Below, one piece after another: positions 1,545 through 20,034 of a stretch of 21,650 nucleotides of DNA. Below the pieces are notes generated by a model. That model searched no databases, was not told where the DNA came from, and was given only the letters and a program-made list of their open reading frames with translations. Position numbers and translations under genes: made by a program. The first letter of the stretch is position 1, and each line of letters starts with the position of its first letter. Source of the DNA: a virus; the IMG/VR virus record IMGVR_UViG_3300042383_000463, positions 1 to 21,650 of that record; one strand, 5' to 3'.

Positions 1545-2053
1545 TCACTGGTCGCCCACTCGCTTGCGTTGCAGCCCTCGCCATCACGGTGGCGAGTGGC
1601 TGCAGCGCGTCGCATCGCATCGCACAAAAGGCCAGCAGCATTCGTGAGAGTGCAGACTCAATCATCGATGCCACTGATCGAATGGATGAGGCCTCGCCTG
1701 ATGTCCAACTCGTGCGAGCCGAGGCCGAGCAGATTCGACATCAAGTGTCGGACATACATGGTGCGTTGCCCGGTGTACGAGATGTCGTGCCTGCTTGGCT
1801 AACGCTCCTCACATGGATCGCGATCGCTGCAGTTGGTGCGTGCGCGGTCTGGGTGTTGACTGCGAGCGGTGCACTGTCTGCGATTCGCATCGCGATCGGT
1901 TGGTTGCCACGACGCAAAGTGGTCGAAGCAGAGATGGCAGCAGCAACGATTGATGCCAATGCGCCTGAGACGGTGCGAGAGTTTGTCGCGATGAAACGCG
2001 GCACCGATCGCGAGTTCGATGCGGCTTTTCAAAGAGCCAAAAAAGGCTTGTGA
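1541..2053 (+). CDS. lipoprotein with coiled coil and transmembrane segment (u-spanin-like topology)
   Basis: I start this gene at GTG 1541, which overlaps the preceding stop as GTGA. The longer open frame upstream encodes an Arg-rich stretch that is only the shadow of the membrane-protein gene. From 1541 the 170-residue product begins with a signal peptide ending in VASGC, a lipobox with the modified Cys at residue 21. Residues 22-83 are polar and helical. Residues 84-108 form a clear transmembrane helix, extended by a hydrophobic stretch to about 122 and then RRK. The last 45 or so residues are charged and probably cytoplasmic. An outer-membrane lipid anchor plus an inner-membrane helix is the plan of unimolecular spanins, although those normally end at the helix. 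An alternative is a generic lipoprotein. Confidence 0.6.
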   Translation: MITGRPLACVAALAITVASGCSASHRIAQKASSIRESADSIIDATDRMDEASPDVQLVRAEAEQIRHQVSDIHGALPGVRDVVPAWLTLLTWIAIAAVGACAVWVLTASGALSAIRIAIGWLPRRKVVEAEMAAATIDANAPETVREFVAMKRGTDREFDAAFQRAKKGL

Positions 2054-2062
2054 AACAAGCCT
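2039..2062 (-). terminator. hairpin with A-tract 5' of stem: possible leftward terminator at end of left gene cluster
   Basis: A perfect 7-bp stem AGGCTTG (2044-2050) / CAAGCCT (2056-2062) with a five-base loop spans the stop codon of the lipoprotein gene. On the + strand six A residues (2039-2044) precede it and no T-run follows. On the - strand the same hairpin is followed by six T residues, the form of an intrinsic terminator. It could block leftward transcripts, or act on the + strand only as an mRNA end-protecting hairpin. Confidence 0.5.
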
Positions 2063-2063
2063 A

Positions 2064-2092
2064 TGTACAGAAGCATGGTTTCATGTCATAAT
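2064..2092 (+). promoter_or_regulatory. candidate extended -10 promoter
   Basis: CATAAT at 2087-2092 is preceded by TG at 2084-2085, giving an extended -10 (TGTCATAAT). Exactly 17 bases upstream lies TGTACA (2064-2069), a 4-of-6 match to the sigma-70 -35 box. It lies just after the left cluster and faces the operon with the repeated hairpin elements, about 500 bases before the first gene. The assignment rests on pattern only. Confidence 0.35.
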
Positions 2093-2503
2093 GCTTGCTG
2101 TTCGATCTTTGACATCCCGGCTGGATTACAAGTGCACCGCCGCCCAGCGCTCCGAACAAGCGCATCTGGGACTGGCGAGCAGCCCCGCACAACTCTGACG
2201 AGCGTGAAGCGACGACTCAGAGTGGCGAGGAGAAGCAGGACTGACGGCAAGCCTCGTACGCGAGTCGCGCCGACCACCTTCCCCTTCTAACGCAGCGAGC
2301 ACCCAGCCGGACAAGCAGACGCGAGTGACGACGCGCAGGACAGGCGATAGCGAAGAGCAACGACCCGCCCCTGCAACGCGACACGAAGCGACGAACAGAG
2401 TCTCAAGTAGTAGTACCGCCAACGCGATTGAAGTGAGAGCCAATCGGTTGTGAGCGGGCAGTGACCTGCGCGAGACGGATCGAACACCAATAGCGCGAAG
2501 AAC
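2093..2503. other. intergenic stretch without a convincing gene
   Basis: About 410 bases between the candidate promoter and the first repeated element. Open frames here encode only Arg/Ser/Thr-rich, low-complexity peptides with no family resemblance and no good ribosome site. The + strand is purine-rich with many recurrences of GCGAC/GCGAG-type words. TTGACA occurs at 2109-2114 but lacks a matching -10. If the candidate promoter at 2064-2092 is real, this is a long untranslated leader, and could hold a non-coding RNA or protein-binding sites. I see no tRNA and no long perfect hairpin. Confidence 0.4.
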
Positions 2504-2586
2504 AACCACGCCAGCCGTCGAGTCAGACGGCTGGCTGGTTCTTGTTCGCGGAACAAGATGCACACCACCAACGCGGCAACCGCCGC
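2504..2586 (+). repeat. three-hairpin intergenic element, copy A (divergent)
   Basis: This is the first and most divergent of six related elements. Hairpin 1 is CCAGCCGTC (2511-2519) / GACGGCTGG (2526-2534), closed outside by AACCA (2504-2508) / TGGTT (2536-2540). Hairpin 2 is CTTGTTC (2541-2547) / GAACAAG (2551-2557) with loop GCG, extendable by one T-A pair. A linker without G (2561-2572) follows. Hairpin 3 is GCGGC (2573-2577) / GCCGC (2582-2586), directly abutting AAGGA and the ATG at 2599. All three stems pair perfectly even though stems 1 and 2 differ in sequence from the other copies. Confidence 0.85.
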
Positions 2587-2598
2587 AAGGACACTCAC

Positions 2599-2973
2599 AT
2601 GAAGAACACGCACAACCTCGCTCGCCGTTTCAACATCGTCAACGCCGCAACCAGCAACTGCCTGCTCGACCTCGTGAAGCGATACGAAGAAGCCGCAGAA
2701 GATCAGCAGGTCGCATCAACGCTCGCAGATCAGATCAGTGCTCTGGACGAGCAGATCAACGAACTGGATCAACTCGACCATCTGACTGCAAAGCAGGAAG
2801 CGAAGCTCAAGAGCCTCACGAAGAAGGTCGAGGCTCTGGTGAAGAAACTGGAAGCAGCAGAGAGCGACTGCGAGATGAGCGCGAAGTCAGTCGAGTACTA
2901 CCTCAATCACATGATGGATCAGATGAATCGACACATCGACAACCTTGAGTACCAGTTCAACGGCTGCAAGTGA
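2599..2973 (+). CDS. small coiled-coil protein of unknown function
   Basis: The start is ATG 2599, with AAGGA at 2587-2591 immediately after hairpin 3 of element A. The open frame extends further upstream, but only through the hairpins. The 124-residue product begins with a basic patch (MKNTHNLARRF). Residues 40-90 are a clear coiled coil with repeated L/I/V heptads and many Glu, Lys and Gln. A more polar C-terminus follows, with YYLNHMMDQMNRHIDNLEYQF. It has no signal peptide or membrane segment. It is the first gene in a run of small unknown genes each preceded by the same RNA-like element, which suggests shared expression. Such small cytoplasmic coiled-coil proteins early in a phage operon are often host-takeover factors, but nothing here shows that. 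Confidence 0.75.
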   Translation: MKNTHNLARRFNIVNAATSNCLLDLVKRYEEAAEDQQVASTLADQISALDEQINELDQLDHLTAKQEAKLKSLTKKVEALVKKLEAAESDCEMSAKSVEYYLNHMMDQMNRHIDNLEYQFNGCK

Positions 2974-2981
2974 AGTGACAA

Positions 2982-3060
2982 GCCACGCACGCCGTCGAGC
3001 GACGGCGTGCTGGCCTGCAACTTCGCAGGACTCACTACACCCCAACGCGGCAATCGCCGC
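2982..3060 (+). repeat. three-hairpin intergenic element, copy B
   Basis: Hairpin 1 is GCACGCCGTC (2987-2996) / GACGGCGTGC (3001-3010) with loop GAGC, plus an outer GCCA (2982-2985) / TGGC (3011-3014) beyond a one-base C bulge. Hairpin 2 is CCTGC (3014-3018) / GCAGG (3025-3029). The linker CTCACTACACCCCAAC (3031-3046) has no G. Hairpin 3 is GCGGC (3047-3051) / GCCGC (3056-3060), followed with no gap by AAGGAG (3061-3066). It fills nearly the whole space between the flanking genes. Confidence 0.9.
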
Positions 3061-3072
3061 AAGGAGTCACTC

Positions 3073-3411
3073 ATGTCCGCTCTCTACGCCACCATCAATG
3101 ATTGCGCCGCCAAGAACAAGCCCACGGGTCGTGGGCATCGCAGCATCGCCGCGACTGTCAAGGATTGGGACTTCAAGATCGAGGCAACGCTTGAAGCCGC
3201 GCCGAAGGGTGCAGAGGTCGACACTTGGGCGACCATCACCGTGACTGATCTGCGCAGCGGCGAGTCGATCGAGATCGCCTCTGACGAACTGCCTCGCATC
3301 TTCAAGCAGGCCAAGGCACGCAAGGAGAAGCAAGAGCGCGAAGAGGCAGCGATCAGCAAGTTGCTGCTCGATCGCGAGACCGCTGCGTTTGCACTCGACG
3401 CGGTGCGTTGA
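3073..3411 (+). CDS. small protein of unknown function
   Basis: The start is ATG 3073, six bases after AAGGAG at 3061-3066. Longer frames would run through element B. The product is 112 residues. The N-terminal part (about 1-75) looks like a compact beta-rich domain, with alternating hydrophobic and polar residues in VDTWATITVTDL and SGESIEIASDEL. The C-terminal part (about 80-105) is a highly charged helix, KQAKARKEKQEREEAA. I recognise no family, catalytic motif or metal site. It sits between elements B and C and is presumably co-expressed with the neighbouring small genes. Confidence 0.7.
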   Translation: MSALYATINDCAAKNKPTGRGHRSIAATVKDWDFKIEATLEAAPKGAEVDTWATITVTDLRSGESIEIASDELPRIFKQAKARKEKQEREEAAISKLLLDRETAAFALDAVR

Positions 3412-3419
3412 CGGCACAA

Positions 3420-3495
3420 GCCACGCACGCTCGCACTCGCGAGCGTGCTGGCCTGCATCGTCGCAGGACTCACTACATCAACGCGGCACAGCCGC
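3420..3495 (+). repeat. three-hairpin intergenic element, copy C
   Basis: Hairpin 1 is GCACGCTCGC (3425-3434) / GCGAGCGTGC (3439-3448) with loop ACTC and outer GCCA (3420-3423) / TGGC (3449-3452). The inner stem differs from copy B on both arms, so pairing is preserved. Hairpin 2 is CCTGC (3452-3456) / GCAGG (3463-3467). The linker is ACTCACTACATCAAC (3468-3482). Hairpin 3 is GCGGC (3483-3487) / GCCGC (3491-3495), loop ACA. The ribosome site of the following gene is weak. Confidence 0.9.
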
Positions 3496-3509
3496 AGAAC
3501 GGAAACGCC

Positions 3510-3878
3510 ATGAGCCTGAATTGGAACCTCACAAAAATTCGCAATCGTGATGTCGTGTGTTGGGAGCGTGATGAACATGGATACAACAACATCAGTGGCG
3601 TGACACACACCATCATCTTCGCAACTATGGCAGTCGACCTCGGAGAGATCAGCGCGAAGAATGTGGACGAGTGGCTCGTGCGACTGCAGTGCATTGGTCG
3701 CGTCTACGCCGACAACGGCTGGTCATCCATCACGCGCCAGCAACTGACGGACCACATCGGCCTGAGCACCAATGTCTCCAACAAGACGCGCAAGCAGTTC
3801 TTGAGCAAGATGAGCCAAGCACTCGAGCGTGAGTGTGTGAGCGAAGTCAAGCGCTCTGCTGAACTTGCTGGCATGTAA
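3510..3878 (+). CDS. small protein of unknown function
   Basis: The start is ATG 3510 after hairpin 3 of element C; the only ribosome-site-like sequence is ACGGA at 3499-3503, so initiation may be weak or depend on the hairpin. The product has 122 residues. It is rich in aromatic and charged residues early (MSLNWNLTKIRNRDVVCWERD), and its second half is mostly helical, with an Arg/Lys-rich stretch near residues 95-105. No known domain is visible. Its last codons, encoding RSAELAG plus Met, are nearly the same in DNA and protein as the end of the gene at 4703-4984, and both stops are followed by copies of the same element. This points to duplication of the 3' end together with the element. Confidence 0.7.
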   Translation: MSLNWNLTKIRNRDVVCWERDEHGYNNISGVTHTIIFATMAVDLGEISAKNVDEWLVRLQCIGRVYADNGWSSITRQQLTDHIGLSTNVSNKTRKQFLSKMSQALERECVSEVKRSAELAGM

Positions 3879-3886
3879 CGAAGCAA

Positions 3887-3977
3887 GCCACGCACGCCGT
3901 CAAGGGACGGCGTGCTGGCCTGCATCGTTGCAGGATCATCACTCATCTCACTTCATCATCCAATGCCGCCCAGCGGC
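3887..3977 (+). repeat. three-hairpin intergenic element, copy D
   Basis: Hairpin 1 is GCACGCCGTC (3892-3901) / GACGGCGTGC (3906-3915), loop AAGG, outer GCCA (3887-3890) / TGGC (3916-3919). Hairpin 2 is CCTGCA (3919-3924) / TGCAGG (3929-3934). The linker (3936-3964) is the longest of the six copies and contains no G. Hairpin 3 is GCCGC (3965-3969) / GCGGC (3973-3977), with the arms swapped relative to copies A-C. AGGAG (3978-3982) follows directly. Similarity with copy E extends upstream into the end of the preceding gene. Confidence 0.9.
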
Positions 3978-3988
3978 AGGAGATCACT

Positions 3989-4516
3989 ATGGGTTTCATC
4001 AAGACCGCGTATCGCGCCATGCAGACTCGTTTCGCAGCATTCATGTGGGCACACGCAGACGAAGACTTCGTGCAGCGGTGCATCAGCGAATGCGTTGGAG
4101 TCATCGACATTGATGACATGGCGCAAGAAGCCAGTGAGCGCATCATCGATGCTGTTGACCTTGAAGGCATCACTCGCGAAGTGGAGCAGTCACTCATCGA
4201 GAACACCGATGTGGACACAGACGACATCGTTGAGAAGATCGTCTACAACCTCAGCACCGACGACATCGAGCGCATGGTCACGGATGAGTTGGTGCAGAAC
4301 ATCAGCGTGAGTCAATGCACGGATGCGATCGTTGAGACGGTCGGCGACGAAGTCAAGGACGACTGCATCGAGCAGATCATGGAGCAGATCGAGGATCAGC
4401 GCGAAGGATGGGCAGAGGTGATTGCGCAGCGTCTGGTCAAGAATGATGCGTTCCTGACTGCGATCGCAATCGCATTGGTGCGCAACAGCACGGAGGCGAC
4501 TAATGCGAAGGCATAA
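3989..4516 (+). CDS. acidic, helical protein of unknown function
   Basis: ATG 3989 follows AGGAG (3978-3982) with a six-base spacer. The 175-residue product starts with a short basic amphipathic segment (MGFIKTAYRAMQTRF). Its middle is strongly acidic: between about residues 45 and 140 it alternates short Asp/Glu-rich stretches with Ile/Val/Leu, as in DVDTDDIVEKIVYNL and DDIERMVTDELVQNI. The pattern looks like a repeated helical unit of roughly 20 residues. High negative charge and phage context would fit a DNA-mimic or an inhibitor of a nucleic-acid-binding host protein, but that is speculation. The gene ends 14 bases inside the sigma-like gene, so the two are probably coupled. Confidence 0.75.
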   Translation: MGFIKTAYRAMQTRFAAFMWAHADEDFVQRCISECVGVIDIDDMAQEASERIIDAVDLEGITREVEQSLIENTDVDTDDIVEKIVYNLSTDDIERMVTDELVQNISVSQCTDAIVETVGDEVKDDCIEQIMEQIEDQREGWAEVIAQRLVKNDAFLTAIAIALVRNSTEATNAKA

Positions 4517-4706
4517 GTGCTGCGCACCATCGATCGCGGTGCGACCGAACTGGTGGCGCGCGCACCTGCAGCCTGTTCGCAGCAGCGAGCAGGTCGCAGC
4601 CATGCTCGGGATTAGTGTCAACGCGGTGCGATCTCACGAATCAACAGCCATTCGCAAGTTGCGATCGGCACTCAAGAAACTCAACACGACAAGGAGACTG
4701 GCATGA
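4503..4706 (+). CDS. stand-alone sigma-70 region 4-like HTH protein
   Basis: This 67-residue protein has SSEQVAAMLGISVNAVRSHE followed by STAIRKLRSALKKL at about residues 27-60. The spacing matches the helix-turn-helix of sigma-70 region 4, which contacts -35 promoter DNA (compare the pattern E-x-V-x-x-x-L-G-x-S-x-x-x-V-R-x-x-E-x-x-A-x-x-K-L-R). No region 2 is present upstream, so this is a single domain rather than a complete sigma factor. The start ATG 4503 has GGAGG at 4493-4497 inside the preceding gene. The stop overlaps the next start as ATGA. Likely roles are redirecting host RNA polymerase or acting as a small DNA-binding regulator; a generic LuxR/sigma-like HTH cannot be excluded. 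Confidence 0.7.
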   Translation: MRRHKCCAPSIAVRPNWWRAHLQPVRSSEQVAAMLGISVNAVRSHESTAIRKLRSALKKLNTTRRLA

Positions 4707-4984
4707 TGGGTAGCAAGCACTTTGAACATCTGATGCACTGCCTGCGCAGCAAAGCTGCGAAGGACATGAAGGCCAATGAGGAGTACGCGGTGGTCGCGTT
4801 GCGTCGGCTTCGCCTCGGCAAGGACTGCGAGCGCATTCTGCAGTCGCTGTCGAGAGGGGCGACCAGCCCCACCGAGATCGCACGCGACCTCGGATGGGAT
4901 CCACCGCTGGTCGTCCTTGAGCCACTCGATGTCGCTGCGAAGCGATGGCTCGACAAGCGGTCGGCTGAACTTGCTGGTGAGTAA
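4703..4984 (+). CDS. small protein, possible winged helix-turn-helix
   Basis: ATG 4703 overlaps the sigma-like gene stop (ATGA) and has AAGGAG at 4691-4696. The 93-residue product is basic at its N-terminus. From about residue 40 it reads CERILQSLSRGATSPTEIAR followed by DLGWDPPLVVLEPLDVAAKR. The Leu/Gly spacing around SPTEIARDLGW resembles the helix-turn-helix of winged-helix regulators (x-S-x-x-E-I-A-x-x-L-G). Pairing with a region 4-like protein suggests that the two regulate transcription, but no partner or target is visible. The C-terminal RSAELAG plus Glu is shared with the gene ending at 3878. Confidence 0.65.
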   Translation: MMGSKHFEHLMHCLRSKAAKDMKANEEYAVVALRRLRLGKDCERILQSLSRGATSPTEIARDLGWDPPLVVLEPLDVAAKRWLDKRSAELAGE

Positions 4985-4992
4985 CGAAGCAA

Positions 4993-5068
4993 GCCACGCA
5001 CGCCGTCTCGTGACGGCGTGCTGGCCTGCATCGTGCAGGATGTTCACTACACAACGCCGCATTGCGGC
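4993..5068 (+). repeat. three-hairpin intergenic element, copy E
   Basis: Hairpin 1 is GCACGCCGTC (4998-5007) / GACGGCGTGC (5012-5021), loop TCGT, outer GCCA (4993-4996) / TGGC (5022-5025). Hairpin 2 is CCTGCA (5025-5030) / TGCAGG (5034-5039), loop TCG, one base shorter than copy D. The linker TTCACTACACAAC (5043-5055) lacks G. Hairpin 3 is GCCGC (5056-5060) / GCGGC (5064-5068), loop ATT. The downstream ribosome site is weak (AGAAAGA). Confidence 0.9.
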
Positions 5069-5082
5069 AGAAAGATTGACAC

Positions 5083-5613
5083 ATGGTTGCAAGCAATACA
5101 CAGATGGTCAGCACGCAGTTCAATCAGTACGGCTTCGGGCGCGACAGGAAGCGAGTTGATCGGCAAGCGCTGATCTCGGCGCGACGCGACGGCATCGCGC
5201 AACTGATGGAGAGTGGCATCCCGGAGATGGATGCGATGCTGAAGTGGGACTTTGAAATGGCACCAATGACTACTGATGCTGAGAAGTTGAAGTTGGTCTG
5301 CGTGCATGACATCTTGCCAGAGTCTATGAGCGAAGCGGAGGCATACGCCGCAAGCCTCGCTCAGAACAACGCACTCGGACTTCGCGCGTGCCTGATCGAC
5401 ACGATTGAAGGCCTCGCAGACCTCGGCACATTCCTCATCAATACAGACTCCTACAGCGATGCCGAGTTGATGGTGAAGCTGTGGAAGCAGGTGCTGCGAG
5501 ATGTCATTCATGACATTCCGCCCGGATGCTGTGCGGAGTTCATCGACATGGATCAGCACCGGATTCGTGATGCGAAGGTGGTCGACCGAGATCGCTGGAT
5601 GCCAAAGCCATAA
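5083..5613 (+). CDS. protein of unknown function
   Basis: ATG 5083 lies 14 bases after hairpin 3 of element E, and only a poor Shine-Dalgarno (AGAAAGA, 5069-5075) precedes it. The 176-residue product begins with a flexible Ser/Asn/Gln-rich leader and a basic segment (GRDRKRVDRQALISARRDG). A mainly helical, acidic middle follows, then a C-terminus with PPGCCAEFIDMDQHRIRDAK. There is no transmembrane segment, signal peptide, nucleotide-binding motif or metal-binding cluster that I recognise. It shares neighbours and an element-type leader with the other small genes here. Confidence 0.7.
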   Translation: MVASNTQMVSTQFNQYGFGRDRKRVDRQALISARRDGIAQLMESGIPEMDAMLKWDFEMAPMTTDAEKLKLVCVHDILPESMSEAEAYAASLAQNNALGLRACLIDTIEGLADLGTFLINTDSYSDAELMVKLWKQVLRDVIHDIPPGCCAEFIDMDQHRIRDAKVVDRDRWMPKP

Positions 5614-5621
5614 CGAAGCAA

Positions 5622-5700
5622 GCCACGCACGCCGTCGTATGACGGCGTGCTGGCCTGTCGCGTTGACGGGAACTCACTTCATCAAACGCCGCACAGCGGC
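5622..5700 (+). repeat. three-hairpin intergenic element, copy F
   Basis: Hairpin 1 is GCACGCCGTC (5627-5636) / GACGGCGTGC (5641-5650), loop GTAT, outer GCCA (5622-5625) / TGGC (5651-5654). Hairpin 2 has changed on both arms to CCTGTC (5654-5659) / GACGGG (5665-5670), still fully paired with one T-G wobble. The linker is AACTCACTTCATCAAAC (5671-5687). Hairpin 3 is GCCGC (5688-5692) / GCGGC (5696-5700), loop ACA. AAGGAG (5704-5709) and ATG 5716 follow. Confidence 0.9.
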
Positions 5701-5715
5701 AGCAAGGAGCGACCC

Positions 5716-6579
5716 ATGGTCGCAATCGGAAACTCATCGTTGGTTCTTCACGCAGGAGCGCATCAGGTCGAGAGGCAGCAGGTGTGCGATGTCATCACGC
5801 CCGAGGCGACTGACACGCACTTCCCGATCGCACACATCGCTGTGCTGCGCATGGTCGAGCAGACCATCGCAGACCTCGGTTGGACGATCACGGAGTACGC
5901 GCATGCACTGCTTGGTGACGGCCTGCGCTACTTCGGTCTGCTTGCGATCAAGCGACCGTATGGGTCGAGCGACGAGTCGTGCCTTGAGACAGACGGCACC
6001 TATCAGTGGGTGCTGGGCATTCGCAACGCCCACGACAAGTCATTCGCAGCAGAGGCGATTCTCGGATCGCGTGTGTTCGTGTGTGACAACCTTGCCTTCA
6101 GCGGTACGGGCAAGTCCGTGTTTCGATTCGCTCGCAAGCACACGCGATTCATCGAGCGCGACATGCCAGGACTCGTTGCTGGTGCGTTCGGCAACATGGT
6201 GCAAGGCATGCGAGCAGAGGCAGAGCGCATCGCGTCCTACAAGCAGTTCGCGATCGAGAGCGATGATCAGGTGCATGACTTCTTGATCCGAGCGATGGAT
6301 CGGCGAGCGATCACACCGCAGGCACTGCCTCATGTGCTGCGCGAGTGGCGACGCGAGGACGGCCCGGGCGGACTGGCTGTGCGATGCCGCGACGAAGACC
6401 CGGCCTTCGGTGCGCGCACTGCGTGGCGACTGCTGAACGCCTTCACCGAGGTCGAGAAGCAGAAGCCATCGCCGATGGCAAGCCCGAAGCGCACGAGTCG
6501 CCTCATCGGTCTGTTGGATGGGTTCGTCGGCAACGCTGAAGAGGCCAGCGTGCTCGATGTCGGTGGCGTTGACGATTGA
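5716..6579 (+). CDS. DUF932 / phage-plasmid-like protein
   Basis: ATG 5716 follows AAGGAG at 5704-5709. The 287-residue product matches my recollection of the DUF932 family of phage and plasmid proteins. The clearest parts are the block GLLAIKRPYG near residue 76 and then LGIRNAHDKSFAAEAILGSR, VFVCDNLAFSGTGKSVFRF between roughly 100 and 140. Family proteins are about this length and are common on phages and conjugative plasmids, often near recombination or anti-restriction genes; their biochemical activity is not established. Here it is the last gene of the element-linked series and lies just before the recombination genes. A 13-bp hairpin follows 14 bases after the stop. Confidence 0.75.
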   Translation: MVAIGNSSLVLHAGAHQVERQQVCDVITPEATDTHFPIAHIAVLRMVEQTIADLGWTITEYAHALLGDGLRYFGLLAIKRPYGSSDESCLETDGTYQWVLGIRNAHDKSFAAEAILGSRVFVCDNLAFSGTGKSVFRFARKHTRFIERDMPGLVAGAFGNMVQGMRAEAERIASYKQFAIESDDQVHDFLIRAMDRRAITPQALPHVLREWRREDGPGGLAVRCRDEDPAFGARTAWRLLNAFTEVEKQKPSPMASPKRTSRLIGLLDGFVGNAEEASVLDVGGVDD

Positions 6580-6593
6580 GTGTGATCGAGAGT

Positions 6594-6625
6594 GGGGAGG
6601 CGGTCGCCGACACGACCGCCTCCCC
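6594..6625 (+). other. 13-bp perfect hairpin without T-run
   Basis: GGGGAGGCGGTCG (6594-6606) and CGACCGCCTCCCC (6613-6625) pair perfectly around a six-base loop. It lies between the DUF932 gene and the next coding start. No T-tract follows, so a simple intrinsic terminator is unlikely. It could be an mRNA 3'-end stabiliser, a Rho-assisted termination structure, an RNase III-type processing site, or an inverted-repeat operator. It is unlike the stems of the six repeated elements. Confidence 0.75.
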
Positions 6626-6676
6626 GGCGTGCAAGGACGCGACGCAGACAGCGTACCAAACCAGAAAGGAATGGCA

Positions 6677-6895
6677 ATGAAGACACAGAACGCAGAGCGA
6701 CGACCGCTCAAGGTGGTGTTGGAACTTCGTAGCAACGGCGATCCATACGGTCGTGGGTATGTCGCATCGGAGTCACGAGACGGTGGACTCACATGGGTCT
6801 ACCGCGGCGATGTTGGAGCAGCGTCGCGTGAGTGGTGGCGACGAGAAGCGCGGCGCATCGGCGCACAGTTGCGAGAAGTGCGAGGTGGTCGATGA
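6677..6895 (+). CDS. small basic protein of unknown function
   Basis: I chose ATG 6677 because AAAGGA (6665-6670) lies six bases before it; the in-frame ATG at 6671 directly abuts the Shine-Dalgarno. The 72-residue product is basic, with an Arg/Trp-rich second half (SREWWRREARRIGAQLREVR). The N-terminal part reads as short beta strands (KVVLELRSNGDPYGRGYVAS, DGGLTWVYRGD). No family is recognised. It overlaps the following HTH gene by the ATGA junction at 6892-6895, so it heads the recombination operon. Confidence 0.65.
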   Translation: MKTQNAERRPLKVVLELRSNGDPYGRGYVASESRDGGLTWVYRGDVGAASREWWRREARRIGAQLREVRGGR

Positions 6896-8014: not shown

Positions 8015-8743
8015 ATGACACGCACCAAGGACAAAATCGTGGACGCAATGAATGCGCCGAACCAGCACGCCATCGACCTCAAGGAAGAGATCGAAAGTCA
8101 GACACGCACATGGGAGTACCGACTCATTGCAGCACAAGCAGCGATGGCTCGCGTTGTGAAGGATTCGCGTGTTGCCTTCGGCACTCAGCGCTACGCCTAC
8201 ACGAGTGCAGAGGACATGATCGGTGCATGCCGAGAAGCACTTCTGAGTGCTGGCTTGGCCTTGACGAGGCAATGGGACATCGTCTCAACGGAACGCGGCG
8301 TGAATGTCGTCAGCTACTTCTCACTGCATCATCCGAATGGCACTGTGCAGATGGGCACTTGCCCATTCCCGTTGGTCGGGCAGAACGGCAAGGGCGAGGA
8401 CAAGGCAGTTGCGACTGCCCTGACTTCAAGCCTCGGCTACTTCCTGCGTGACTTGCTGATGGTTCCCAAGGAGGATGACTCGCAGCAGATGGTCAAGGCA
8501 CCAGAGATGGATGCCCGCGACGATCGCACGGTCACCAAGCCCGAGGAGCGCATCGGACTTGAAGGCGCAGCGTCGCTGCGTCAGCGTGTGCAAGTGACGG
8601 GCGCGACGCTCGCGCAGTTGCACAGCGCGATGGTGAAGGCAGGCGTGCCGCTGCCAAGCCCTGAGGTTCATACATGGCCCATCTCGTTGATGCCTCGCAT
8701 CGAGAAGTGGATCACAGCGCAGGCGGCAAAGCCTGTCGCATGA
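8015..8743 (+). CDS. ERF-family single-strand annealing protein
   Basis: The 242-residue protein resembles the ERF family of phage recombinases. It has YAYTSAEDMIGACREALLSA with GLALTRQ in the first half, and a later block KAVATALTSSLGYFLRDLLM. The latter matches the family's conserved A-x-T-x-x-x-R/G-Y-x-L-x-x-L-L pattern. ERF proteins form rings that anneal complementary single strands, working with a 5'-3' exonuclease, which is encoded directly upstream. ATG 8015 follows the exonuclease stop by two bases. The C-terminal part (about residues 170-242) is less conserved and likely carries partner contacts. A structured gap follows. Confidence 0.85.
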   Translation: MTRTKDKIVDAMNAPNQHAIDLKEEIESQTRTWEYRLIAAQAAMARVVKDSRVAFGTQRYAYTSAEDMIGACREALLSAGLALTRQWDIVSTERGVNVVSYFSLHHPNGTVQMGTCPFPLVGQNGKGEDKAVATALTSSLGYFLRDLLMVPKEDDSQQMVKAPEMDARDDRTVTKPEERIGLEGAASLRQRVQVTGATLAQLHSAMVKAGVPLPSPEVHTWPISLMPRIEKWITAQAAKPVA

Positions 8744-9137
8744 ACCATCGTTCTTCAACTTGAAGAACCATCATTTCGCCATCCATGCGTTGACGCGCAT
8801 GGGTGGTCTTCAAGCATGGTTTGTTGACTTTCTATGATGTGTCTTCAACCAATCGCCCACGCTCGGAGGGCGCGACACTTGCGAGTGAACGAGCAACGCA
8901 CCGACAGCGTTCCAGTCAAGTCGATCGTGGCCGTGATGATGTGTACACGGCGAGAGGCAGAGACTCACGACCTACTCTGCCCCGTGGCGCAAGTCACGCA
9001 CTCAAGGCATCATGCGGTGGCTGCTGACACGAGCAGCAAAATGGTGAACTGATGCCCAGCGACCGAAGCCAACGGCAACGGACTGCGACCCTTGTTGGGT
9101 CGTGCTCCCTCACCACAGCAACACTGAAAGGACAGCG
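8744..9137. other. structured intergenic region with four hairpins
   Basis: Nearly 400 bases without a convincing gene. Four stems are visible: GTTCTTC (8750-8756) / GAAGAAC (8762-8768); an 11-bp stem 8779-8789 / 8796-8806 with one T-G pair and loop TTGACG; GCTGCT (9020-9025) / AGCAGC (9032-9037); and CGACCC (9086-9091) / GGGTCG (9097-9102). TCTTCAA recurs three times near the left end. None of the stems has a terminator-like T-run. A -10-like TATGAT at 8833-8838 lacks a good -35. A GTG-started 55-codon frame at 8886-9052 is possible but weak. ParB-like gene translation uses AAAGGA at 9127-9132. Confidence 0.6.
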
Positions 9138-16057: not shown

Positions 16058-16298
16058 TAAGCAGGGCGGATAGGGGCATGAAAAGTTTTTTGTCAGTTGC
16101 CATTGGCCGGGCCTCCCTCTTGAGCGCGCGTATGCGCGGAACTTTGGAAAACAGGTCGCCTGATCAACTAGGATCCGTTCTGCCGCATCGGCGAGGCCAT
16201 GACGGGTGTCGAGCCATCGAAATGGGTCAACGCAGCGTGGGCCATCGTCGGCCGCTTGGAAGGCAATGCGAAACCATGGTTCTTCAGGGTGAAGAAGA
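16058..16298. other. intergenic gap with a possible 35-codon gene or gene remnant
   Basis: This 240-base gap interrupts an otherwise tightly packed packaging region. The frame at 16199-16306 (ATG, 35 codons) encodes TGVEPSKWVNAAWAIVGRLE followed by GNAKPWFFRVKKNG, which reads like folded protein. Upstream in the same frame, DPFCRIGEA follows a TAG at 16169-16171, and protein-like codons extend further left to a TGA. The nearest Shine-Dalgarno (GAGG, 16193-16196) is only two bases from the ATG, which is too close. A remnant of a broken small gene is plausible, as is a real short gene. The left part has AAAAGTTTTTT and a small CGCGC-GTAT-GCGCG hairpin, without a clear terminator. Confidence 0.4.
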
Positions 16299-16805
16299 AT
16301 GGTTGATGGAGCAGGGTTTCCCATGTTGAATGGCAGGCCACCAAAGCCGAACGCGCTTGCTGCCTTGTCGGGAGACAGACGCAGGAAGGGCAAGGGCATC
16401 GACTTGCCGAACTCGATGCCTGTAGTGCCCGAGTGGTTGCCCGAGGACGCGAAGGCAGAGTGGGCGACTCTTGCCCACACGCTCTCGACCATGCGCGTGC
16501 TGGCCGAGGTCGATGGCATTGCGCTCGCGCAGTTGGCCGACTACCTCGCGAAGTGGAAGAAAGCAGCGGAGCAGGTTGCCCGACTCGGCCTCGTCCTTCC
16601 CATTCGTGACGCAGCGGGAACCGTAGTGAGTTTCAGACGCAACCCGTATGTGACCATGCACCTTGAGTATGGCTTGATGGTGCAACGCCTACTCGCCCAG
16701 TTTGGTATGACTCCATCAGCGAGAGCGAGATTGATGAATGGCGAAGCGCAAGCGACCGACAACATCTTCAGCCGCATCGCGAGCGTCCAAGTCGGCGGCT
16801 CGTAG
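16299..16805 (+). CDS. terS: terminase small subunit, P27-like
   Basis: The product (up to 168 residues) resembles P27-family small terminases. It has GRPPKPNALAALSGDRRRKG near the start, then P-x-W-L and A-E-W (VVPEWLPEDAKAEWATLAHT), a helical core, FRRNPYVTMHLEYGLMVQ, and the family ending FGMTPSARARL. These proteins recognise phage DNA and load the large subunit. The start could be ATG 16299, which overlaps the end of the small upstream frame, or ATG 16323 (MLNGRPPKPN), which starts directly at the conserved part and has GGAG eleven bases upstream. The gene overlaps the large terminase by 68 bases. Confidence 0.85.
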   Translation: MVDGAGFPMLNGRPPKPNALAALSGDRRRKGKGIDLPNSMPVVPEWLPEDAKAEWATLAHTLSTMRVLAEVDGIALAQLADYLAKWKKAAEQVARLGLVLPIRDAAGTVVSFRRNPYVTMHLEYGLMVQRLLAQFGMTPSARARLMNGEAQATDNIFSRIASVQVGGS

Positions 16806-19994: not shown

Positions 19995-20034
19995 AGACCT
20001 TGCAATCGGAAGCGAAGGGACTACCCTACGAACC

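Follow-up and report, generated by a model that had tools for sequence, protein, structure and literature searches.

The early gene cluster of the viral IMG/VR record IMGVR_UViG_3300042383_000463 (21,650 bases, analyzed as a whole and called the window below) carries one RNA architecture in six intergenic gaps between positions 2495 and 5700. On comparative sequence evidence, this architecture represents a conserved cis-acting RNA composed of two modules. Module 1 comprises a short 5' strand (S1), hairpin 1 and hairpin 2, for which compensatory changes show a compact predicted unit of about 60 nucleotides (nt) with a hairpin inserted in a pseudoknot. Module 2 is hairpin 3, placed directly 5' of an open Shine-Dalgarno (SD) sequence. 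The window encodes replication, recombination and head genes. An initial annotation had described six copies of a three-hairpin architecture with a linker almost free of G, and this architecture was present in all six gaps with the linkers containing 2% G. The gap boundaries given there were essentially right, but the elements begin 10 nt further 5', with S1, and while the three hairpins exist, the earlier description lacked the pseudoknot and did not separate hairpins 1-2 from hairpin 3 as distinct modules.

From 5' to 3', each element consists of S1, hairpin 1, hairpin 2, the linker, hairpin 3, the SD and the ATG, all on the plus strand. S1 has 5 nt at positions -10 to -6 relative to hairpin 1, which is built from 4 bp, a bulged C and 10 bp (14 bp in total) with a loop of 4 or 6 nt. 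Hairpin 2 follows directly 3' of hairpin 1 and has about 5 bp in five copies and 8 bp in copy 1. The linker, 14–30 nt long in the window (40% C, 36% A, 22% U, 2% G), leads to the 5 bp of hairpin 3 directly 5' of the SD. Element 1 (2495–2586; S1 2495–2499, GCGAA; hairpin 1 2505–2539; hairpin 2 2540–2558; hairpin 3 2573–2586) precedes the ATG at 2599 of the first gene of the cluster, with no open reading frame (ORF) upstream. Element 2 (2972–3060) has S1 at 2972–2976 (GAAGU, pairing with ACUUC), hairpin 1 at 2982–3014, hairpin 2 at 3014–3029 and hairpin 3 at 3047–3060 before the ATG at 3073. In element 3 (3410–3495), the corresponding parts lie at 3410–3414, 3420–3452, 3452–3467 and 3483–3495 before the ATG at 3510, and in element 4 (3877–3977) at 3877–3881 (AACGA, pairing with UCGUU), 3887–3919, 3919–3934 and 3965–3977 before the ATG at 3989. 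Element 5 (4983–5068; 4983–4987, 4993–5025, 5025–5039 and 5056–5068) and element 6 (5612–5700; 5612–5616 with AACG pairing with CGUU, 5622–5654, 5654–5670 and 5688–5700) precede the ATGs at 5083 and 5716, respectively. The sequence GCCA-C-GCACG, which the initial annotation had assigned to five copies, is exactly shared by them, and copy 1 carries a compensatory change at the base of hairpin 1 (ACCA pairing with UGGU). Folding of all six elements was better than that of each of 200 dinucleotide shuffles, with z-scores of -5.5, -5.8, -4.4, -4.9, -4.6 and -3.6 for elements 1 to 6.

The fourth helix is formed by S1, just 5' of hairpin 1, which is complementary to the loop of hairpin 2 and thereby makes the element a pseudoknot. 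The combinations of S1 and loop covary between copies (GAAGU:ACUUC, AACGA:UCGUU, GACGC:GCGUC, CACGG:CCGUG, AACAG:CUGUU, AACGG:CCGUU and GCGAA:UUCGC). Among the 120 positions of 24 distinct combinations, 107 were paired, a value reached in none of 20,000 trials in which loops were shuffled between copies (89.7 ± 3.0 paired positions). When upstream positions were scanned for complementarity to the loop, the sole peak was at -11/-10. In alignment A4, S1 was 96.4% paired with double-sided changes in four of its five pairs, and sliding the partner strand reduced pairing to 19–53%. Simulation of independent columns on the tree yielded a paired fraction of 0.81 ± 0.055, and the observed 0.964 was never reached in 3000 runs; at the level of whole helices, this test gave 0/3000 for both hairpin 1 and S1. 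A per-pair test similar to R-scape on the small tree returned E<0.05 for two pairs of hairpin 1 only and for no S1 pair, the best of which had an E-value of 0.9. In copies 2–6 of the window, the upstream gene's stop codon contains the start of S1 (position -11). Since the stop codon lies further 5' in some other copies, S1 does not need it.

Compensatory changes also back hairpins 1, 2 and 3. Alignment A1 comprised 29 copies from the window and its close relatives, of which 98.2% of the cells were paired, with 64 double-sided changes compared to 18.8 in shuffles; hairpin 1 was 100% paired and seven of its pairs were doubly changed. The copies in A1 had been gathered with a pattern fixing CCACGC and UGG, which is why these columns are invariant there. 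A search with the covariance model R1, free of this constraint, recovered copies in the related contig L079 with GACA/UGUC and with another internal loop. Together with the CGA/UCG and GCCG/CGGC variants of the hairpin 1 base in L287 and distant copies without the bulge, they reveal that the CCA-C-GC core is variable. Hairpin 3 occurred as GCGGC/GCCGC, GCCGC/GCGGC, GCCCC/GGGGC and GAUGC/GCAUC. G-U cells numbered 5 in A1 and 12 in A4 versus 6 and 4 C-A cells, a strand asymmetry that provides only weak evidence for the sense strand.

Relatives were collected by scans for DUF932, terminase and sequence patterns and by searches of whole records. Counted over the search results, 22 IMG/VR contigs of one uncultured phage lineage contain the elements, 13 with copies of class I and nine with copies of class II. 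In class II, hairpin 1 has about 13 bp and usually a GNRA loop, followed by a spacer that is AUUC in most cases, an extended hairpin 2 whose loop is mostly GCGU, hairpin 3 and the SD. These copies precede homologous genes, for example those for the MSLNWN family and DUF932, and nine of their pairs show double-sided changes (23 cells compared to 7.4 in shuffles). The GCCG/CGGC copy of L287 has a GAAA loop, and its hairpin 2 is longer, which makes it intermediate towards class II. In whole class I contigs of 35–37 kb, strong matches were confined to the early cluster and all had gene orientation; weak matches on the other strand overlap with true copies, a consequence of the nearly palindromic hairpins. 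Covariation in all helices, confinement to one cluster, gene orientation and occurrence in 22 contigs argue for an RNA element rather than chance, as the initial annotation had supposed. It had named missing covariation, an Rfam match or an ordinary dispersed repeat as outcomes speaking against its proposal; all three were checked and none was found.

Outside this lineage, about 60 phages whose DUF932 genes are more distant yielded no credible copy, and named phages had no DNA match to the region. A strict pattern scan of approximately 85,000 species genomes, which covers canonical class I copies only, retrieved no copy, and seven pattern matches in species genomes are attributed to chance because none had hairpin 1 pairing. 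Most matches from one of the sequence pattern scans for relatives likewise lacked the structure and were discarded as chance. Two Brevundimonas phages have MSLNWN homologues, and the gap before the gene is just 36 nt in the one inspected. In Salinibacter phages with DUF932 homologues, the gaps were devoid of such an element. Salinibacter phage M8CRM-1 contains repeated motifs with ACTACCC in non-coding gaps near its DUF932 gene (1747–2369, 3885–3961 and 4781–4829).

The two modules are independent of each other, since hybrid elements join module 1 of one element to hairpin 3 and the SD of another. In L011, the first element combines hairpins 1-2 of the element 1 type with hairpin 3 and the SD of the MSALY gene, which is the second gene in the window. 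In L010 and L009, the MSLNWN gene has its own hairpin 3 and SD, and module 1 in front of them is of the type of window element 2. The simplest reading is that genes were probably lost or exchanged by crossover inside elements, between hairpins 2 and 3, and hairpins 1-2 thus appear to belong to the position and hairpin 3 with the SD to the gene. Hairpin 1 seems to be homogenized within genomes (window, L009, L011 and L012), and hairpin 2 and the linker follow position. The similarity of hairpin 1 was 0.952 within a genome versus 0.888 between orthologous copies of another subclade, in a small sample and as string similarity only.

Nearly every gene of the early cluster is preceded by a copy, with 6–8 copies per cluster, and at least 12 unrelated gene families lie downstream of one. 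In each class I phage with a readable leader, no ORF precedes the first copy. The window gene at 6677–6892 has no element, whereas its homologue in L079 (50% identity) is placed before DUF932, within the stretch that bears elements, and is preceded by an element (3820–3915, minus strand), so that the homologues lie on opposite sides of DUF932. The element goes with the position rather than with the gene.

The element may have a regulatory or processing role, as suggested in the initial annotation. We favor, with a probability of roughly 0.4, a function as an intercistronic RNA punctuation module composed of a block, a cleavable linker and a protected ribosome-binding site (RBS). In such a device, which would punctuate the polycistronic early transcript, module 1 would form a stable block at which the preceding RNA segment, either leader or gene, ends and is protected, and the exposed linker would offer a cut site for a host or phage nuclease. 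Hairpin 3 would become the 5'-end guard of a separate, unmasked translation start, and each gene of the cluster would obtain an equivalent, insulated mRNA. Because S1 overlaps the stop codon, a terminating ribosome on the upstream gene would open the pseudoknot, which could, speculatively, couple the punctuation step to translation. Cleavage, the nuclease and the coupling to ribosomes are steps that we infer; the punctuation function fits best because a generic module with a naked linker and a hairpin on the side of the RBS is found at every non-overlapping junction, including the one before the first gene. Only tentatively do we propose the full scheme of a previously undescribed pseudoknotted device at every non-overlapping junction, with two independently recombining modules, that terminating ribosomes would open and that would let one polycistronic RNA act as separate mRNAs. 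The early intercistronic RNase III sites of phage T7 are likewise structured, recur in early gaps and each lie before an RBS, but they are longer, irregular hairpins without a pseudoknot. Several observations weigh against punctuation as described here. The linker is rich in A and C, whereas a classic RNase E site is A/U-rich. The L079 copy at 5124–5206 lacks hairpin 3 and one class II copy has no clear hairpin 1. By eye, without a formal test, no consistent pseudoknot was seen in class II copies, which suggests that it is not required in all copies.

Among the competing explanations, a protein-bound operator ranks before an attenuator, and the attenuator before a put-like antiterminator. A phage protein that recognizes module 1 in every leader and thereby sets the cluster's expression jointly at the level of translation or stability is a rather doubtful alternative, although it would account for one generic module in front of unrelated genes. 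The greater similarity of hairpin 1 within than between genomes, with hairpin 2 and linker following position, is what a common recognizer predicts, but gene conversion can also homogenize hairpin 1. Phage T4 provides parallels, in that about 30 mRNAs are RegA targets and a pseudoknot in the gene 32 mRNA leader precedes the start codon, as in the present case (PMC3014915). Yet the T4 structure serves autoregulation of a single gene, whereas the present element is a generic copy before many unrelated genes and has a 14-bp hairpin inserted. After the pseudoknot, the C/A-rich linker and hairpin 3 follow instead of an unstructured, A+U-rich operator of the gene 32 type. Moreover, the loop and most stem bases of hairpin 1 are free to vary and no RNA-binding protein was identified: the MSLNWN protein (3510–3875) gave a confident AlphaFold model with a pLDDT of 91.8 and no PDB fold match at E≤0.001, and the predicted structure model of the MSALY protein was poor. 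Intercistronic attenuators without U-tails, grading expression along the cluster, appear unlikely. Strong GC-rich hairpins in successive early gaps would suit them, and the title of Ingham et al. (1995), as cited in PMC8355165, names terminators without poly-U in the early region of actinophage phiC31; as far as this title goes, the common feature is the occurrence of hairpins lacking U-tails in the early region of a phage, and there is no known tie to RBS hairpins or pseudoknots. Terminator-like sites were few (seven compared to 4.0 expected) and mostly not the elements. In addition, the pseudoknot and the RBS-linked hairpin 3 would be superfluous for termination, the first gene also has a copy in front of it, and the hairpin at the end of the last gene is of another kind.

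It is very unlikely that the nascent RNA with its two hairpins acts in cis as an antiterminator by binding RNA polymerase, in the manner of put RNA of phage HK022, which works through the beta' zinc-binding domain of the enzyme. Module 1 is similar in size to put (about 70 nt) and like it has two adjacent stem-loops in an early phage transcript, and the first copy is located in the early leader as in HK022 (PMC9378689). Nevertheless, put occurs once per early operon, whereas 6–8 pseudoknotted copies per cluster, each beside an RBS, are found here, and the paper on the put structure does not mention a pseudoknot (PMC9378689). Our models R1 and R2 had no credible match in HK022 positions 20000–40751 (the best R1 match, inside the integrase gene, had an E-value of 0.022; no direct alignment to put was made). 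Equally improbable, in our view, are repeats that are kept as joints for gene swapping by homologous exchange. Gene losses marked by hybrid elements, with the crossover lying inside an element, and a RecE-like exonuclease and an Erf-like annealing protein encoded by the phage would fit this explanation, but compensatory changes cut DNA identity while keeping RNA pairing, contrary to maintenance driven by homology, and the strict gene orientation and the location of hairpin 3 beside the SD are likewise at odds with this explanation. Exchange is better read as a by-product.

Among described elements, ESAS (extended start-associated sequences) are similar to the one treated here in placement, put in size and number of hairpins and the T4 gene 32 leader in its use of a pseudoknot. 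One feature that defines ESAS and one that defines the gene 32 operator are, however, missing from it. The ESAS of cluster K mycobacteriophages are inverted repeats upstream of gene starts, with a 13-bp SAS, GGGATAGGAGCCC, at the start site (PMC3203893). An inverted repeat just upstream of non-structural gene starts is present here as well, and both are multi-copy, nearly of one orientation and associated with unrelated genes. The present elements differ in that they fill the whole gap, their helices covary, and a pseudoknot, a linker and a distinct RBS hairpin are part of them. The 13-bp SAS had one match with three mismatches (292–304) in the window and none at the elements. Rfam 15 gave no match at the gathering score in the whole window and none at E≤1 in positions 2040–6700. 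Canonical intrinsic terminators were rejected, as there is no U-tract and only hairpin 1 of element 1 was flagged among the six, with a poor tail. For integron attC sites, the RYYYAAC and GTTRRRY cores were present together in 0/29 copies. Known self-cleaving ribozymes were rejected for the missing Rfam match and because, from our reading of the A1 alignment, there is no conserved unpaired core. Sequestration of the SD by the linker had a helix sum of 128 compared to 132.8 in shuffles. Without a U-tract and linker-SD pairing, both ordinary terminators and SD sequestration are disfavored. A limited search of the open literature found no description of such an element, which does not prove its absence.

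Upstream of element 1, a consensus scan detected a promoter-like site on the plus strand (TGTACA-17-CATAAT with TG before the second hexamer, 2064–2092), in a region that is aligned in relatives; it is weak because one such site was found and 0.8 were expected. The long non-coding leader at 2100–2494 (about 400 nt, plus strand) is conserved in relatives, being part of an alignment of six phages with 84% mean column identity, and is possibly a structured RNA of its own. All following genes are on the plus strand. Element 1 is followed by a gene for 124 amino acids (aa) with no confident family (2599–2973), element 2 by the MSALY gene (3073–3411, 112 aa), element 3 by the MSLNWN gene (3510–3878, 122 aa), which is found in class I and class II phages, and elements 4 and 5 by genes for 175 aa (3989–4516) and 176 aa (5083–5613). 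The overlapping ORFs 4503–4706, similar to sigma-70 region 4, and 4703–4984 leave no gap and have no element. The last gene with an element, behind element 6, encodes a DUF932 protein (5716–6579, Pfam PF06067, E-value 5.7e-8). The initial annotation had called the six downstream genes unrelated and small; they are unrelated, but this 287-aa protein is not small. A perfect 13-bp hairpin just 3' of the DUF932 gene (6594–6625, plus strand) does not belong to the element family. In class II phages, this location is occupied by a long hairpin, and a second long palindrome is present in addition (L238, 7563–7718). Elsewhere in the window, 8725–8779 and 16268–16322 form a 55-nt inverted repeat with 78% complementarity, 7.5 kb apart.

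ESAS were an earlier case of multi-copy structured elements at phage gene starts, for which evidence of the molecule they act in was lacking. The compensatory changes described here place the action in RNA and define a pseudoknotted unit of about 60 nt and a separate RBS module. A device that can be placed before unrelated genes is testable in reporters and could serve as an insulator part. In this phage lineage, repeated RNA elements also appear to have turned into joints for gene exchange.

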